Source: Alphaproteobacteria bacterium
Lineage (GTDB): Bacteria > Pseudomonadota > Alphaproteobacteria > ATCC43930 > CGMCC-115725
Direction: 5' to 3'
NCBI GenBank assembly: GCA_030041385.1
Contig: JASHNY010000177.1
Location: forward strand, 1-39,698
Length of the DNA: 39,698 bases
In this document: positions 30,202 through 36,729 of the stretch, one piece after another
Position numbering within the stretch: the first letter of the stretch is position 1
How the letters are laid out: each line of letters begins with the position of its first letter
Translations under genes and position numbers: made by a program
The notes under the pieces: model-generated
Databases searched by the model: none
The model's input: only the letters and a program-made list of their open reading frames with translations
What the model was told of the DNA's origin: nothing

Positions 30202-31035
30202 ATGGAAACCGAGGCGCAGGTCGCGCAGCATTACGGCCGGGCCGGCATCGCCGAGCGCATCCTCGCCGCGCTGCGCGAGGCGAACGGCGCCGGGGCGCCG
30301 GTCACCGTCGAGGCCTTGTCGGCGATCGACCATTTTCACGGGCGCGGCATCGTCGCGACGCAGGAGCTGGCGGCGGTGCTGAAGCCGCAGGCGCACGAGC
30401 GGGTGCTCGACATCGGCTCCGGCATCGGCGGGCCGGCGCGGTGGATCGCCGCTCACTGCGGCTGCCATGTCACCGGCGTCGATCTGACCCCGCTGTTTTG
30501 TGAAGCGGCGCGCGCCCTCAACGCGGCGACCGGGCTCGCCGACCGGGTGCAGATCATCGAGGGCAGCGCGCTGGCGCTGCCGGTGCCCGACGCCGCGTTC
30601 GACTGCGCCTATTCGCAGAACGTCGTGATGAACATCGCCGACAAGCCCGGCCTCTACCGCGAGGCGTTTCGCGCCTTGAAGCCGGGCGGGCGGCTGGCCC
30701 TGTCGAACCTCTGCGCCGGGCCGGACACAAGCGGTTTCCGCTTTCCGGTGCCGTGGGCCGATACCCCGGCGACGAGCTTCCTAGTGACGCCGGCGGAGAT
30801 GCGCGCCGACCTCGCCGCCGCCGGGTTCGAGATCGTCTCGTTCCGCGACATCACCCGCGAAACCATGCCCGCGACGATCCGCAACCGCGAACGGCTCGAA
30901 CGCGACGGGCCGCCCCGCCTCGGCGCCCATCTGATCGCCGGCGAAAGGCTGGTGGAGGCGCAGATCAACTCGGCCCGCAACGCCGAGGAGGGCCGCACGA
31001 TCGCGATCGAGGCGCTGGTGACGAAGCCCGCCTAG
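30202..31035 (+). CDS. Class I SAM-dependent methyltransferase
   Basis: A 277-residue Rossmann-fold methyltransferase. Motif I is VLDIGSGIGGPARWIA near residue 68, the acidic end of strand two is VTGVDLTPLFCEAA, and motif III/IV is seen around DCAYSQNVVMNIADK and LKPGGRLALSNL. The preceding DHFHGRGIVATQELAAVL is typical of the group that includes glycine/sarcosine N-methyltransferases and Coq5/UbiE-like enzymes of small-molecule methylation; the substrate is not clear. A GAGGGCAGGA Shine-Dalgarno precedes the ATG. It is divergent from the RidA-like gene, and its stop codon overlaps that of the convergent MFS gene (CTAG at 31032-31035). Confidence 0.88.
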   Translation: METEAQVAQHYGRAGIAERILAALREANGAGAPVTVEALSAIDHFHGRGIVATQELAAVLKPQAHERVLDIGSGIGGPARWIAAHCGCHVTGVDLTPLFCEAARALNAATGLADRVQIIEGSALALPVPDAAFDCAYSQNVVMNIADKPGLYREAFRALKPGGRLALSNLCAGPDTSGFRFPVPWADTPATSFLVTPAEMRADLAAAGFEIVSFRDITRETMPATIRNRERLERDGPPRLGAHLIAGERLVEAQINSARNAEEGRTIAIEALVTKPA

Positions 31036-32273
31036 CGGGCCGGCGGCCGGCGCAGGCTCCAGAAGGCGATGCAGCCGCACAGATAGGACGCGATCGACAG
31101 GATGAAGGCGAGCCGGTAGCTGCCGGACAGGTCGAAGATGAACCCGGCGGCCCACGAGCCGATCGCGGCGCCGAGGCCGCTGCCGATCGTGATGACCCCG
31201 AGGATGGTGCCGAGCCGCGGCCCCGGGAACAGGTCGGCGGTCTTGGCCGTGATCGCCGGGCCGCGCGCGCCCCAGGTCAGTCCGAAAAAACAGGCGTGCA
31301 GCCACAGCAGCAGGTGCTGGTCGGGGCTGGTGATCAGGAGGGCGCAGATCACCCCGACGATCGAGAACCCGTAGGCGAGGATCGCGGCCAGTTCGCGGCC
31401 GATATAGTCAGAGATCGTGCCGGTCACGATCGTGCCGGGCACCGCCAGCAGCGCGCCGATCCCCAACACGCTCGCCGCGTAGAGCTTGTCGAAGCCGACA
31501 TTCACGGCAAAGGCGAGCTGGTGCAGCGAGACGAAAAAGCTGCCGAGCCCGGTGAACAGATACACCGCAAACAACAGCCAGAAATGCCGGGTGCGGGCCG
31601 CCGCGCCGAGGGTCCAGCCCAACGGCCGCAACAGCGCCGGCGCGGCGCCGGCGTGCGCCGCGGGCGTCGCCGACCCCCGGTCGCCGCGCCGGAACAGGAT
31701 TGCGAGCGGCAATACCGCCGCAGCCATGAACGCGGCCTGCGCGAGGTAGGTGGTGCGCCAGCCGATGCCTGAGATCAGAAACTGGATCAGCGGCGCCGAG
31801 ATCGCCCGGCCGAACCCGTTGGCCGACTGCACGATCGAGATGGCCATGCCGCGCCGGCGCACAAACTGCCGCGACAGGATCGGCACGAACACGACGAGGC
31901 CGAGACAGTTCGCCCCCAGCGTCATCACGATCCCGTAGAGAAAAATGACCTGCCACAGCGCATGAATAAAGGCGCTGCCCACCAGCCCCAGCACCAGCAA
32001 CGCGCCGCCGAGCAGCAATAGGCGCCGCGGCCCGAGCCGGTCGACCAGCGAGCCGACGAGCGGCGCGCTGCCGCCGGCGACCAATTGCGAGACCGAATAG
32101 GCGATCGAGGTCTCGGCCCGGCTCCACGCGAACGCCTCGATAAAAGCGACCAGGTACACCGTGTAGGCGCTCATGATGCCGGCGCTGATCGTGAACGCGG
32201 TAAAAGCGCCGAACAGCAAGAGCCAGCTGTGCCCCGCGGCGGTGCGCCCGGTATCGGAAACGGAGGTGCTCAT
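31032..32273 (-). CDS. MFS transporter, oxalate:formate antiporter/monocarboxylate-like
   Basis: A 413-residue 12-helix transporter of the major facilitator superfamily, resembling the OFA/MCT branch (WLLLFGAFTAFTISAGIMSAYTVYL at the first helix is split here only for reference). Between helices 2 and 3 it has VGSLVDRLGPRRLLL, the usual G-x-L-x-D-R-x-G-x-R-x loop. A central loop with alanine/proline-rich sequence separates the two six-helix halves, and TGTISDYIGRELAA is the matching loop in the second half. Likely cargo is a small carboxylate. The start is ATG 32273; the open frame continues upstream for over 200 codons but has no Shine-Dalgarno or transporter homology there. It is unrelated to the MHS triplet. 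Confidence 0.85.
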   Translation of the reverse strand: MSTSVSDTGRTAAGHSWLLLFGAFTAFTISAGIMSAYTVYLVAFIEAFAWSRAETSIAYSVSQLVAGGSAPLVGSLVDRLGPRRLLLLGGALLVLGLVGSAFIHALWQVIFLYGIVMTLGANCLGLVVFVPILSRQFVRRRGMAISIVQSANGFGRAISAPLIQFLISGIGWRTTYLAQAAFMAAAVLPLAILFRRGDRGSATPAAHAGAAPALLRPLGWTLGAAARTRHFWLLFAVYLFTGLGSFFVSLHQLAFAVNVGFDKLYAASVLGIGALLAVPGTIVTGTISDYIGRELAAILAYGFSIVGVICALLITSPDQHLLLWLHACFFGLTWGARGPAITAKTADLFPGPRLGTILGVITIGSGLGAAIGSWAAGFIFDLSGSYRLAFILSIASYLCGCIAFWSLRRPPAR

Positions 32274-32462
32274 CCGGCCGATCGTGGGCGAATTTCGCGG
32301 CGCGGTCACCCTTGCCCGACGCAGTCGGGGGTTGCGCCGCCGCGCCCGCGCCAAACGTCGCAGCCCGGGCGAGGGAACGCCGCCGGCCAGGCAGGCCCGA
32401 ACCCGGCAAGCCCCGAGCGGAGGGGGATTGCTTAGCGCCGCCGGCGATGACACAACTATCCG

Positions 32463-32836: not shown

Positions 32837-33292
32837 CTACGGAAGCCGGCGGACCATGTCGATATGCGGCACGCCGGCATCGTCGTATTCGGCCGAGCTC
32901 GGGGTGAAGCCGAAGCTCGCGTAGAACGGCACGAGGTAGGTCTGCGCGCTGATGGCAATCGGCAGGTCGGGAAAATCGCGCCGGCTCACGGCCAGCGCCT
33001 CGGCCATCAGCCATCGGCCGATCCCCCGCCGGCGATGGGACGGCGCCACCGCGAGCCGGCCGATCCGAGTCTGTGCGGCTTCCGGAATCAGGCGCAGATA
33101 GCCGGCAAGGCTGCCGCCAGCCCGCAACAGCAGGTGGCGGGCGGCCATGTCGCGCCCGTCGAGGTCTTCATAGGGCGATTTCTGCTCGACGACGAAGATC
33201 GCCTGGCGGAATTGCAATATCTCGTAGAGCAGTGCCGCCGGCATATCGGCGAAGCCGTACCAGGCAAGCGCGATGTCGTCGTCGTTGATCAA
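32837..33292 (-). CDS. ElaA-like GNAT family N-acetyltransferase
   Basis: A 151-residue protein of the ElaA branch of the GNAT superfamily: LYEILQFRQAIFVVEQKSPY followed by DLDGRDMAARHLLL, then the acetyl-CoA-binding loop VAPSHRRRGIGRWLM (the Q/R-x-x-G-x-G/A signature) and the C-terminal PFYASFGFTPSS. The substrate of ElaA is not known. Translation must begin at TTG (33292), which sits five bases after a near-perfect AAGGAGGT at 33297-33304; no in-frame ATG or GTG is better placed. It is divergent from the phosphonoacetate hydrolase gene, with GTATATAC and a repeat element between. Confidence 0.9.
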   Translation of the reverse strand: MINDDDIALAWYGFADMPAALLYEILQFRQAIFVVEQKSPYEDLDGRDMAARHLLLRAGGSLAGYLRLIPEAAQTRIGRLAVAPSHRRRGIGRWLMAEALAVSRRDFPDLPIAISAQTYLVPFYASFGFTPSSAEYDDAGVPHIDMVRRLP

Positions 33293-33456: not shown

Positions 33457-34710
33457 ATGAACACGATCGAACTGAACGGCCGAACCTATCGCCATCCGCG
33501 CCGCCCGACCGCGGTGATCTGCGCCGACGGCTGCGACCCGACGTATCTCGACGCCGGCTTCGCCGCCGGGGTGCTGCCGAACCTGGCGCGGTTCCGCGAG
33601 CGCGGCTTCTATGCCATCGCCGACGCGGCGATGCCGACCTTTACCAACCCCAACAACGTCTCGATCGTGACCGGCGTGCCGCCGGCGCAGCACGGCATAT
33701 CGGGGAATTTCATGCTCGACCGAGCCACCGGCGCCGAGATCATGATGACCGAGCCCGAGCTGATGCGCAGCGATACGGTGCTGGCGCGGATGTCGCAGGC
33801 CGGGGTGGCGACCGCGGCGTTGACCGCCAAGGACAAGCTCCGCCGCCTGCTTGGGCGCGGGCTTGCCATCGGGTCCGGGGGCATCTGCTTTTCATCCGAG
33901 CGGGCAGACCGCTGCACCCTCGCCGAGCACGGCATCGAGCGGGTCGAGCAATTGGTCGGGCGGCCGACCCCAGACATGTATTCGGCCGACCTGTCGCTGT
34001 TCGTGCTCGATGCCGGCATCCGCCTCGTCGAACAAGGGCGCGCCCGGCTGCTCTACCTGTCACTATCGGATTACGTGCAGCACGGGCATGCGCCGGATGC
34101 GCCCGAGGCGCTCGAATTTCACCGCGAGCTCGACCGGCGCCTCGGGCATCTGGTCGAGCTCGGCTGCATTGTCGCGATGACCGCCGACCACGGCATGAAC
34201 GACAAGGCATTGCCCGCCGGCGAACCCCATTTGATCCTGGTCGAAGACCTGCTCAACGAGAAATTCGGCCCGGGTGCCGTGCGGGTGATCTGCCCGATCA
34301 CCGACCCGTTCGTGCGCCACCACGGCGCGCTCGGCTCGTTCGTGCGGGTCTATCGCAAGCGCGACGACGTGCCCCTCGCCGCGCTCGCCGCTGCGTTGCG
34401 CGATTTGCCCGGCATCGACCTCGTGCTCGACCGCGACGCGGCCGCCCGGTTCTGGGAATTGCCGCGGAACCGCGAAGCCGACTTTGCCGTTACCGGCGAC
34501 CGCAACACGGTGCTCGGCGCGACCGCGGCGGAGCACGACCTGTCCGCTTTGGCCGGGCACCGGCTGCGTTCGCATGGCGGACGGAGCGAGCAGGCGGTGC
34601 CGTTTGTGCTGTCGCATCCGCTCGGCGACGACTACCGTCGCCAGGCCGAAGCGCGCCGGCTCAGGAATTTCGATATCTTCGAGTTCGCCCTTACCGGGGT
34701 GCAGGTCTGA
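33457..34710 (+). CDS. phnA: Phosphonoacetate hydrolase
   Basis: A 417-residue alkaline-phosphatase-superfamily enzyme that splits phosphonoacetate to acetate and phosphate. The full active site is visible: Asp24 (CADGCDP), nucleophile Thr63 (TFTNPNN), Asp205 and His209 (SDYVQHGH), Asp244-His245 (TADHGMND) and His373 (SHGGRSEQ) for two metal ions, plus Lys125 and Lys127 in TAKDKL, which hold the carboxylate and distinguish this enzyme from its relatives. Spacings match the characterised Sinorhizobium meliloti enzyme. The ATG at 33457 is chosen as the family start; the frame is open 42 codons upstream through a repeat. No phnW, phnY or phosphonate transporter is adjacent. A second superfamily member follows after 29 bp. 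Confidence 0.93.
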   Translation: MNTIELNGRTYRHPRRPTAVICADGCDPTYLDAGFAAGVLPNLARFRERGFYAIADAAMPTFTNPNNVSIVTGVPPAQHGISGNFMLDRATGAEIMMTEPELMRSDTVLARMSQAGVATAALTAKDKLRRLLGRGLAIGSGGICFSSERADRCTLAEHGIERVEQLVGRPTPDMYSADLSLFVLDAGIRLVEQGRARLLYLSLSDYVQHGHAPDAPEALEFHRELDRRLGHLVELGCIVAMTADHGMNDKALPAGEPHLILVEDLLNEKFGPGAVRVICPITDPFVRHHGALGSFVRVYRKRDDVPLAALAAALRDLPGIDLVLDRDAAARFWELPRNREADFAVTGDRNTVLGATAAEHDLSALAGHRLRSHGGRSEQAVPFVLSHPLGDDYRRQAEARRLRNFDIFEFALTGVQV

Positions 34711-34739
34711 CCCGGACCTTGACCTGAACAGGTGGCACC

Positions 34740-36017
34740 ATGGCCGCAAGCACCCGCGCCGTCATCGTCATCTGCGACAGCCTGCGCGCCGACCTGATCT
34801 CGCCCGCCGACACCCCCTTTCTCGTCGAACTGGCCGCGCGCTCGGCCAATTTCACCGCACATCGCAGCGTGTTTCCGTCGACGACGCGGGCCAGCTCGGC
34901 CTCGATTGCCACCGGCTGCCACCCGGCGCGGCACGGATTGCTCGGCAACACGATGGCGCTCGACGAGGGCGATGGGCTCGTCTGCCGCAATGTTGGTGCG
35001 CCCGATTTCCGCGACCGGATGCGCCGCGCCACCGGCCGCACCCTGCGGGTGCCGACCCTGGCAGAGCGGCTGCGCTGGCATAACGAGCACGCGATCGTGT
35101 TGTCCAACGTGTCGCCCGGCGCGGCCTATTTCCAGGACCCTGACGGGTATGGCTGGGTTTATCACGCGGCGGGGAGCTACGGCCCCGACGGCGAGATCGA
35201 CGATGCGCCGAGCCGCGCGCTGAACAAGGGCATTGCCGGCGATGCGGCGATGACCGCGCGCTTCTGCAGCGAGATTCTGGCCGAGCGGGCCCCGAGCCTT
35301 GCCGTGATGTGGCTGTCCGAACCCGATTACACCGGCCACCATGCGCCGCTCGGCTCGCCCCAGCATCGCCGCGCGATCGCCGCGGCGGACGCGAACGTGC
35401 GCCTCGTGTTCGAGACCGTGCGTCGCCTCGACCCGGGCGGCAGCGAGATCCTGTTCATCGCCGGCTCCGACCACGGCATGGAGACCGTTGCCGACAGCAT
35501 CGACCTCGACGGGGTCCTGGTCGCCGCCGGCCTCAAGGACGGGAGGGGCTCGCGCGATGTCGTGGTCGCGCCGCAGGGCACGGCGGCGACGATCTTCTTT
35601 TCCGAGAACGCCCGCAACCGGTCCGGCGCGGTGGCGCGATGCCTGGCGCAGCAAGAATGGTCGGGGCGGGTCGTCGCCGACGCCGAACTGGCGGCGGTGT
35701 CACTGCCGACCGACGGTGCGCTCCGCGTCGCGCTGAGCCTTGCCGCGGACGACCGGGTCAACCCGTTCGGCATCCGCGGCCATGCCGGGATTGTCGCCGA
35801 CCCGGGCGACCCCGAAAGCAAGGTCGGCTTCGGTCAGCATGGCGGGCTCGGCCGGCATGAGCAGCACCCGTTTCTGATGGTCGCGGGCGGCGGCTTCGCG
35901 CCGGGCGAGCGGCGCCGGCCAAGCTCGCTCGTCGACATCGCCCCGACCGTGTTGCGCCACCTGCGCATGGACCACGACGACATGGACGGGCAGGCATTGC
36001 CGCCGGCCGCCGAATGA
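34740..36017 (+). CDS. Alkaline phosphatase superfamily phosphodiesterase/hydrolase
   Basis: A 425-residue metal-dependent hydrolase, sister to phosphonoacetate hydrolase and probably co-transcribed with it (29-bp gap, AGGTGG before the ATG). The metal and nucleophile positions are kept: Asp13 (VICDSLRAD), Thr48/Thr49 (FPSTTRASSA), EPDYTGHH, GSDHGME and QHGGLGRHEQHP. It lacks the KDK carboxylate-binding motif of PhnA, so its substrate is probably a phosphodiester or another phosphonate/phosphomonoester, as in nucleotide pyrophosphatase/phosphodiesterase relatives. There is no signal peptide, so it acts in the cytosol. The last helix region SLVDIAPTVLRHL is common to sulfatase and phosphoglycerate mutase-like members of the superfamily. 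Confidence 0.85.
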   Translation: MAASTRAVIVICDSLRADLISPADTPFLVELAARSANFTAHRSVFPSTTRASSASIATGCHPARHGLLGNTMALDEGDGLVCRNVGAPDFRDRMRRATGRTLRVPTLAERLRWHNEHAIVLSNVSPGAAYFQDPDGYGWVYHAAGSYGPDGEIDDAPSRALNKGIAGDAAMTARFCSEILAERAPSLAVMWLSEPDYTGHHAPLGSPQHRRAIAAADANVRLVFETVRRLDPGGSEILFIAGSDHGMETVADSIDLDGVLVAAGLKDGRGSRDVVVAPQGTAATIFFSENARNRSGAVARCLAQQEWSGRVVADAELAAVSLPTDGALRVALSLAADDRVNPFGIRGHAGIVADPGDPESKVGFGQHGGLGRHEQHPFLMVAGGGFAPGERRRPSSLVDIAPTVLRHLRMDHDDMDGQALPPAAE

Positions 36018-36108: not shown

Positions 36109-36660
36109 CTATCGGCGGCTGACCGGCAGCATCAGGTGCTGGTACGGGGTCCCCGGCCACATGACGTAAGGTTCCTTGATGTTGGGGTCCGGGGTTGCCG
36201 GGTATCCCGCGATCATCTCCTTGACCGCGCCGCCGACGATCATCACGTGGGGGCCGTCCTGGACCCAGTGGTTGCCGGGCTCAGGCTTGGTCGCGTAGGG
36301 GTCGGTATTGCTGGTGCCGTGGTCGCCGGCGAGCATGTAGATGAACCCGATCGTGTCCGGCGGCGGCTTGTGGTCGAGCCGCGCTTGCCCCCACGCCATT
36401 GCGTTGGCGTCGGCGCACATCGGCGTGCCGTCCTTCAGGGTCATGCAGGTGAAGCCATTGGTGCCCTGCTTCAGCGTCTGCATCTTGCCGTCATCCATGC
36501 GCACGATCGTGGCGTTGCGCACGACCTGCGGCGGCGCCGCCCTGCGTATGAGCTTCATGTAGGCGGCGTCGGGGCTCTGCTGCCGTGCCTGGGCCGCGCC
36601 GACCGGCGCCGCAACCAATGCGGCGAGCGCGAGGCTCGCCACCGCATGCCGCATATACAT
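36109..36660 (-). CDS. Secreted conserved protein of unknown function
   Basis: A 183-residue protein with a signal peptide (MYMRHAVASLALAALVAAP, cleavage near GAAQA). The mature part has FTCMTLKDGTPMCADANAM with two cysteines, GFIYMLAGDHGTSNTDPYA, and HVMIVGGAVKEMIAGYP, none of which I can assign to a named domain. The hydrophobic and acidic blocks suggest a compact periplasmic domain. Start ATG 36660 follows GGGAGGAATCT; a second ATG two codons later is also possible, and an upstream frame of 23 codons is ignored because the Shine-Dalgarno lies between. It converges on the phosphonoacetate hydrolase pair, and no shared operon is visible. Confidence 0.75.
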   Translation of the reverse strand: MYMRHAVASLALAALVAAPVGAAQARQQSPDAAYMKLIRRAAPPQVVRNATIVRMDDGKMQTLKQGTNGFTCMTLKDGTPMCADANAMAWGQARLDHKPPPDTIGFIYMLAGDHGTSNTDPYATKPEPGNHWVQDGPHVMIVGGAVKEMIAGYPATPDPNIKEPYVMWPGTPYQHLMLPVSRR

Positions 36661-36701
36661 AGATTCCTCCCGCTTTCGTGTAAAATCGAGCAAGTGCGGC
36701 A

Positions 36702-36729
36702 GGATTATCCTTGAGTTTATCGCGGTCAA
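36702..36729 (-). promoter_or_regulatory. Candidate promoter of the secreted-protein gene at 36660
   Basis: On the minus strand TTGACC (complement of 36724-36729), a 16-bp spacer and TAATCC (complement of 36702-36707) lie about 40 bp before the ATG. The -10 is a poor match; recorded as plausible only. Confidence 0.3.

Follow-up and report, generated by a model that had tools for sequence, protein, structure and literature searches.

A recurrent pairing of phosphonoacetate hydrolase with an NPP-like protein family and its possible role in the use of phosphonoacetate conjugates

The window, that is the complete contig JASHNY010000177.1 of 39,698 bases, belongs to an alphaproteobacterial metagenome-assembled genome (MAG) of 4.39 Mb in 264 contigs with a completeness of 98.46%. 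It contains a phnA gene for phosphonoacetate hydrolase that is followed, after a spacer of 29 bp, by a gene of an uncharacterised family of the alkaline phosphatase superfamily, herein called PART. The pairing of PhnA and PART exceeds chance and is conserved far beyond this genome, and a functional link or common pathway of the two is strongly and well supported. The nature of the link is proposed tentatively: the pair may form a two-gene catabolic cassette, wherein PART, as a phosphodiesterase of NPP-like type, would supply PhnA with phosphonoacetate released from conjugates.

The window PhnA consists of 417 residues and scores 595.7 bits against TIGR02335, the curated cut-off being 407.55. 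It shares 48% identity with PhnA of S. meliloti and contains the metal ligands, the Thr nucleophile, and the Lys pair of the KDK motif. D24, T63, N84, K125, K127, D205, H209, D244, H245, and H373 are invariant across 77 aligned PhnAs. From the single sequence, an earlier note on this DNA had listed the metal, nucleophile, and Lys125/Lys127 residues as kept, a reading that the alignment bears out. The gene is predicted to encode a true phosphonoacetate hydrolase.

PART is a protein of 425 residues, for which PF01663 is the only Pfam family over its cut-off (100.7 versus a gathering cut-off of 23 bits). It scores 25.9 bits against TIGR02335, below the cut-off of 407.55, and contains AER where PhnA has KDK. 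D13, T49, N70, D196, H200, D244, H245, and H367 are invariant in 75 aligned PARTs (the one of the window included); they comprise the two-metal ligands, the Thr nucleophile, and the Asn of the NPP family, matched to NPP by alignment for most residues and via alignment to PhnA for the rest. The same note had described a second gene 29 bp on that keeps the catalytic metals and not KDK, which is confirmed here. A segment at approximately 123–138 is specific to PART, with N123, V124, S125, G127, A129, D133, P134, and G138 unchanged in all 75 rows, and differs from the corresponding segment of PhnA. Directly after the nucleophile, all 75 PARTs carry Arg and Xac NPP carries Phe. A formylglycine or Cys nucleophile as in the phosphonate monoester hydrolases (PMHs), where formylglycine is made from Cys, is absent, since all 75 PARTs have Thr; this is silent on whether PART works like a PMH. 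No signal peptide is obvious when the sequence is read by eye. The note had also named membership in a family of known unrelated substrate as an outcome that would speak against its idea; no NCBIfam model reached its cut-off for the window PART, nor for the four relatives and two paralogues tested.

The AlphaFold model of PART has a mean pLDDT of 96.5. In VIA-align, Xac NPP ranks first (Z 36.1, 3.0 Å over 363 residues, 18% identity), followed by ENPP5, ENPP4, ENPP7, and ENPP6. The first ten rows span Z scores of 34.4–36.1 and root mean square deviations of 3.0–3.4 Å over 358–370 residues at 15–18% identity, and all 50 entries listed are NPP-type enzymes. PhnA is not among these 50, which shows nothing alone, though Foldseek with the same model ranks PhnA (1EI6) 18th. 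A profile of the 75 PARTs, searched against PDB sequences, likewise gives higher scores to ENPP4, Xac NPP, and other phosphodiesterases than to PhnA. Paralogues occur at some distance from the family. Four relatives in the own order of the genome contain a second paralogue that is 32–35% identical to PART, and a more distant PF01663 group in rhizobia and others (L197, 8001–9293; L015–L018), with approximately 27–30% identity to PART, lies beside DeoR/GlpR-type regulators and in L197 also beside an ABC transporter.

Loci with PART were collected by a contig scan that used PART motifs alone and was blind to PhnA; the best 80 of 200 confirmed loci were used, and the counts hence lean to near relatives of the window PART. 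PhnA lies on the same strand at a distance of at most 200 bp in 29 of the 80 loci and within about 10 kb in five more, giving 34 of 80 in total. In 28 of the 29 adjacent loci PhnA is the first gene, and 6–199 bp separate the matched regions. The adjacent pair occurs, among others, in Verticiella, Chelativorans, Microvirga, Bosea, Shinella, Ancylobacter, Rhodoplanes, and Bradyrhizobium, so that adjacency with short gaps and near-fixed order recurs in Alpha- and Betaproteobacteria. In a Streptomyces locus, PhnA is found 9.3 kb from PART. On a tree of 89 PARTs (80 scanned, that of the window, five from plasmids, and three from the own order) with three outgroup rows, the label for adjacency requires 11 changes, nine of them forced by starred branches; shuffled labels required a mean of 27.0, and none of 500 shuffles was as low. 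The 9–11 changes imply that the pairing was formed or lost repeatedly. Conserved co-occurrence, which the earlier note had suggested searching for, is hence found. One contig filed as Anaerolineae (L119) carries a PART and a PhnA nearly identical to those of an alphaproteobacterial MAG (L120) and is probably misbinned.

Together with the window and three plasmid loci, the 29 scanned loci give 33 adjacent loci, which include close relatives (e.g., L149, L151, and L154) and thus are not 33 independent cases. The PhnA tree contained PhnAs from PART-linked loci, from four plasmid loci, from genomes of the own order, and from 30 class matches with their loci (that of the own genome excluded); L099 was left out as too short. 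Clades I to III were named on a quick tree of 84 rows, before the careful tree was made, and their split is partly shaped by sampling. The careful tree of 77 PhnAs places 37 rows in clade I (support 94/96), 37 in clade II (100/99), and three in clade III (100/100). On the quick tree, the clade II side holds 29 PART-adjacent rows, one near, and 12 others, this last label taking in L184, though its genome G189 has PART adjacent. The clade I side holds all 29 rows labelled PhnWAY, four near, three others, two with PhnY, and one PART-adjacent, and clade III takes the remaining three PART-adjacent rows. Hence, 29 of the 33 PART-adjacent PhnAs are on the clade II side, in a clade apart from that of the PhnWAY loci, and the window PhnA is a member of clade II. 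PhnW lies near a clade II PhnA in one case of the tree set (L090) and in another found later (L236). Clades I and II are separated by 17 positions (conserved to at least 80% in each) and are alike in their catalytic residues. The two natural PhnAs with solved structures among the entries listed by a PDB search exhibit the clade I letters at signature positions taken from its alignment, e.g., Thr-Thr before the metal ligand D205. The clade III PhnAs (L112, L114, and L147) are diverged and adjoin PART; a TRAP transporter and an amidase lie downstream in these loci. In one of the three PhnAs, Ala replaces the Asp between the two lysines.

The association extends to whole genomes. In a class sample of 385 genomes, 11 contain PART (E ≤ 1e-60) and 44 contain PhnA, both counts including the own genome. 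With the own genome excluded, PhnA is present in 9 of 10 PART genomes, the miss being G134, as compared with 34 of the 374 PART-free genomes (Fisher p 1.1e-8); the two genes are adjacent in only two of those nine (G057 and G189). Among 42 other genomes of the own order, nine hold both genes (adjacent in three), three PART only, nine PhnA only, and 21 neither. Of the genomes behind 48 scanned loci that lack an adjacent PhnA (42 without PhnA, four with incomplete flanks, and two, L090 and L099, in which PhnA is near), 47 were searched. PhnA scored over the cut-off in 38 of these, or 36 of 45 without L090 and L099, which together with the 34 linked loci amounts to 70 of 79.

The genes surrounding the pair were named from representatives, and matches to the NCBIfam models for Ugp and Urt/Liv stayed under the respective cut-offs. 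By homology clusters, an importer lies within 7 kb in 28 of the 33 adjacent loci: Opp in 18, TRAP in four, Liv plus Ugp in three, Liv in two, and Ugp in one. The five loci without a clustered importer are L020 (PhnCDE by annotation), that of the window, and three from relatives in its genus, of which one is on a 3.8-kb contig. Directly upstream, a divergent regulator is found in 23 of 33 loci, of LysR type in 18 and of PF04198, which we take to be SorC-type, in five. An amidase lies within 10 kb in 13 of 33 adjacent loci, none of six near loci, six of 46 loci without PhnA (in five of the six on the opposite strand), and none of four incomplete loci. With 13 of 33 pairs, the amidase was dropped as a universal third gene. 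In Variovorax L019, it is located directly upstream of phnA and more than 10 kb from PART. The own genome contains an amidase copy that is 77% identical to the PART-side amidase of G027, on a 4,226-bp contig in which no PART or importer homologue was found. Near the 29 scanned adjacent pairs, PhnY occurs in five loci and PhnW in none. On a Variovorax plasmid, 8.6 kb separate PART from PhnA, and both belong to a single gene run that also includes PhnY, a phosphonate-type Fe-alcohol dehydrogenase (over the TIGR03405 cut-off), a metallophosphodiesterase, an acetate-CoA ligase, and a PhoD-type gene. The betaproteobacterial loci L019, L088, L094, and L105 combine three phosphoesterases (PART, SpdA-like, and PhoD-type) with PhnA, PhnY, and the phosphonate-type Fe-alcohol dehydrogenase, a gene set that looks as if suited to hydroxyethylphosphonate esters.

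In the proposed cassette, a phosphonoacetate conjugate would be imported, namely a phosphonate ester and elsewhere perhaps an amide too. PART, acting as a two-metal NPP-like phosphodiesterase with Thr49 as nucleophile, would then cut the P–O bond to give free phosphonoacetate, and PhnA would hydrolyse the C–P bond to yield acetate and phosphate. The unit would be completed in many relatives by an importer of its own and a regulator of LysR or SorC type, and at times by an amidase, which in some bacteria possibly releases phosphonoacetate from amide forms as well. We infer both the position of PART ahead of PhnA and a phosphonate ester as its substrate. The earlier note had suggested that the partner opens a phosphonate ester or diester ahead of PhnA; the NPP-like sequence, fold, and genetic company fit this part and make an esterase role plausible, and the two-step pathway stays at the level of a prediction from sequence and model. 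The broader notion of a new pathway for natural phosphonoacetate conjugates, wherein the PART family releases phosphonoacetate from an ester, some bacteria use an amidase for amides, and a separate clade of PhnA performs the last step, is possible and is held with less confidence than the cassette itself.

Among other readings, the one that survives best has PART cleaving an ordinary organophosphate, e.g., a glycerophosphodiester, whose regulation or import is shared with that of phosphonoacetate, without a common intermediate, in a mixed P- or C-scavenging unit. The glycerophosphodiesterase ENPP6 is among the closest folds, Ugp-type importers accompany 4 of the 33 adjacent pairs, PART also occurs in PhnA-free contexts, and the distant rhizobial paralogue group adjoins DeoR/GlpR-type regulators. 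We nevertheless consider it rather unlikely, given that PART is repeatedly and tightly paired with PhnA in particular, in most cases a clade II PhnA, and given the divergent regulators (LysR 18 and SorC-type 5 of 33), a phosphonoacetate-responsive LysR protein, PhnR, being known from passages of PMC10574752.

Improbable, to a clearly greater degree, is that PART is itself a P–C or P–N hydrolase for a modified phosphonoacetate (amide or 2-substituted), working in parallel to PhnA and, where present, the amidase. The common superfamily of PART and PhnA, with AER at the homologous place of KDK, the invariant loop around 123–138 where the PhnA segment differs, and the amidase within 10 kb of 13 of 33 pairs would fit such an activity. 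However, PART is devoid of the two lysines thought to stabilise the leaving group in PhnA (according to excerpts of PMC10574752). In addition, several phosphodiesterases outscore PhnA by profile and the 50 VIA-align entries listed are NPP-type, though PhnA is 18th by Foldseek.

Cleavage of nucleotide-activated phosphonates or other nucleotide diesters, with general phosphonate salvage as the link to PhnA, would agree with a bacterial nucleotide NPP being the closest solved structure and with the PhnWAY-type loci that genomes with unlinked PART often hold. It is nonetheless quite improbable: the residue after the NPP nucleophile, which we take to stack the nucleobase, is Phe in Xac NPP and Arg in 75 of 75 PARTs, and the importers beside the pair appear not to be of nucleotide types. 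Chance or a lineage effect without functional meaning, which could draw on the uncontrolled genome size and lifestyle in the co-occurrence counts, is given almost no weight against the repeated adjacency, short gaps, and near-fixed order in Alpha- and Betaproteobacteria, by which it is already disfavoured.

A number of observations weigh against the cassette. No PhnA was found in the flank examined for 42 of 80 PART loci, and the flank is incomplete in four more. The co-occurrence counts are uncontrolled for genome size and lifestyle. PhnA over the cut-off is missing from 9 of 45 genomes with unlinked PART. In the own order, PART is present without PhnA in three genomes, including G010 and G027 (98–99% complete, G027 with 7% contamination), and PhnA without PART in nine. 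Many unlinked cases exist and the tie is not obligate, so that PART was dropped as a strict partner of PhnA. Clade II identity of the unlinked PhnAs was also dropped: in 37 such genomes, 28 have clade I only (one of these, G457, with a score below cut-off and ambiguous), five both clades, and four clade II only, and PhnW lies beside PhnA in 20 of the 37. As the unlinked PhnA is mostly of clade I and often beside PhnW, PART need not make phosphonoacetate there. On the PART tree, loci that lack a linked PhnA group into separate clades. In marine Rhodospirillales (among L092–L116), PART without PhnA is part of a different conserved unit, together with MFS transporters, an ADP-forming acyl-CoA synthetase, an acyl-CoA dehydrogenase, an FMN hydroxyacid dehydrogenase, and an RraA-family gene; in Reyranella and kin, it occurs without linked PhnA and with a patatin and a luciferase-type gene. 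In unlinked clades, PART may serve phosphonates more widely or another substrate. Arg50 was considered as a carboxylate-binding residue special to PART and was dropped, because the outgroup paralogues also carry Arg at this position and the residue is not diagnostic.

At the window locus itself, tblastn queries for PhnW, PhnY, LysR, SorC-type, Fe-alcohol dehydrogenase, and amidase gave no match over the thresholds used in the entire 39,698 bases, in agreement with the earlier note, which had seen no phnW, phnY, or regulator there. Genome-wide, the top PhnW match has 86.1 bits versus a cut-off of 400.8, and the top PhnY match, at 34% identity, is interpreted as a generic aldehyde dehydrogenase; this genome, at its given completeness, does not hold a PhnWAY system. 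Phosphonoacetate is thus not made via that route there. Importers of the Opp, TRAP, Ugp, and Liv types, amidase, and LysR are all absent nearby, which makes the locus a reduced form of the cassette.

Table 1. Features of the window at and around the phnA–PART pair
Feature	Position	Strand	Basis
phnA, predicted phosphonoacetate hydrolase, PhnA clade II (mostly PART-linked)	33457..34710	+	TIGR02335 595.7 bits; catalytic residues invariant; clade support 100/99
PART, PF01663 NPP-like, alkaline phosphatase superfamily, uncharacterised family; predicted release of phosphonoacetate from a conjugate	34740..36017	+	PF01663 100.7 bits; metal ligands, Thr, and Asn unchanged across the 75 aligned PARTs; model pLDDT 96.5; closest Xac NPP and ENPP4–7
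Spacer phnA–PART, 29 bp	34711..34739	+	fits a single transcript; 6–199 bp between matched regions in 29 other loci
MFS transporter, possible importer for the window locus (start codon not determined)	31032..32312	-	MFS_1
GNAT gene, upstream of phnA	32837-33292	- (opposite to phnA)	
Small gene, function unassigned, downstream of PART	36109-36729	-	no Pfam family
Methyltransferase gene	30202-31035	+	

The MFS gene may serve as importer. Its nearest NCBIfam models, L-lactate and oxalate/formate transporters, are both below cut-off, and in two further genomes of the genus its homologues adjoin PhnA (L062) or are three genes off (L074); the methyltransferase gene keeps near the MFS gene and PhnA in both. 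Part of the product of the small gene downstream of PART is approximately 55% identical to hypothetical proteins encoded on Bradyrhizobium plasmids. The gene was dropped as a member of the unit, having no Pfam family and only hypothetical proteins as the annotated homologues listed. The open reading frame beyond it was recognised by eye as mutS.

Among known systems, PhnWAY of S. meliloti is alike in that the window PhnA has all PhnA catalytic residues, and the same reaction is expected. It differs in that phnY follows phnA where PART does in the window, in that PhnW and PhnY are near 0 and 5 of the 29 scanned adjacent pairs, and in the separate clade of the window PhnA. The phnA region of P. 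fluorescens 23F comprises PhnA, the LysR regulator PhnR, and transporters and is used for phosphonoacetate itself (passages of PMC10574752). PhnA with a LysR regulator and transporters is likewise found in many PART pairs, whereas the 23F enzyme (1EI6) has clade I letters at signature positions taken from an alignment, unlike the window PhnA; those passages of PMC10574752 make no mention of a PART-like gene at the 23F locus. With the NPP family (Xac NPP, ENPP4–7, PF01663), PART has the fold and eight active-site residues in common and differs by the low identity of 15–18%, the Arg instead of Phe after the nucleophile, the lack of an obvious signal peptide (by eye), and its own invariant loop. 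The PMHs of R. leguminosarum and B. caryophylli belong to the same superfamily and possibly catalyse the same reaction type; their nucleophile is formylglycine (from the title of Jonas 2008, cited in PMC5649143), as opposed to Thr49 in PART (75 of 75).

In a marine survey, PhnA is assigned to the breakdown of aminoethylphosphonate, for which PhnW and PhnY are required (excerpts of PMC9381506). According to the sections seen of PMC12366243, a census in FEBS J. of two orders places phnY beside 121 of 145 phnA genes, and the cassette is a candidate explanation for some of the other 24, which those sections leave unexplained. For marine organic matter, phosphonate esters have been postulated to be hydrolysed ahead of the breakdown of the phosphonate, with PhoD-type phosphatases and phosphonate monoester hydrolase as candidates (excerpts of PMC5649143); PART would be a further, different candidate for phosphonate-ester hydrolysis. 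A natural product derived from phosphonoacetate is O-phosphonoacetic acid serine (parts of PMC12723261). Among the papers listed in searches of the open literature, no title or abstract opening described the PhnA–PART pair; an earlier mention in the PhnA papers in J. Bacteriol. 2001 and Biochemistry 2011 is possible.

If the broader pathway for natural conjugates is real, phosphonoacetate conjugates would be a common bacterial food, and PhnA would not be a safe marker of aminoethylphosphonate use. The substrate of PART would make the natural source of phosphonoacetate testable.

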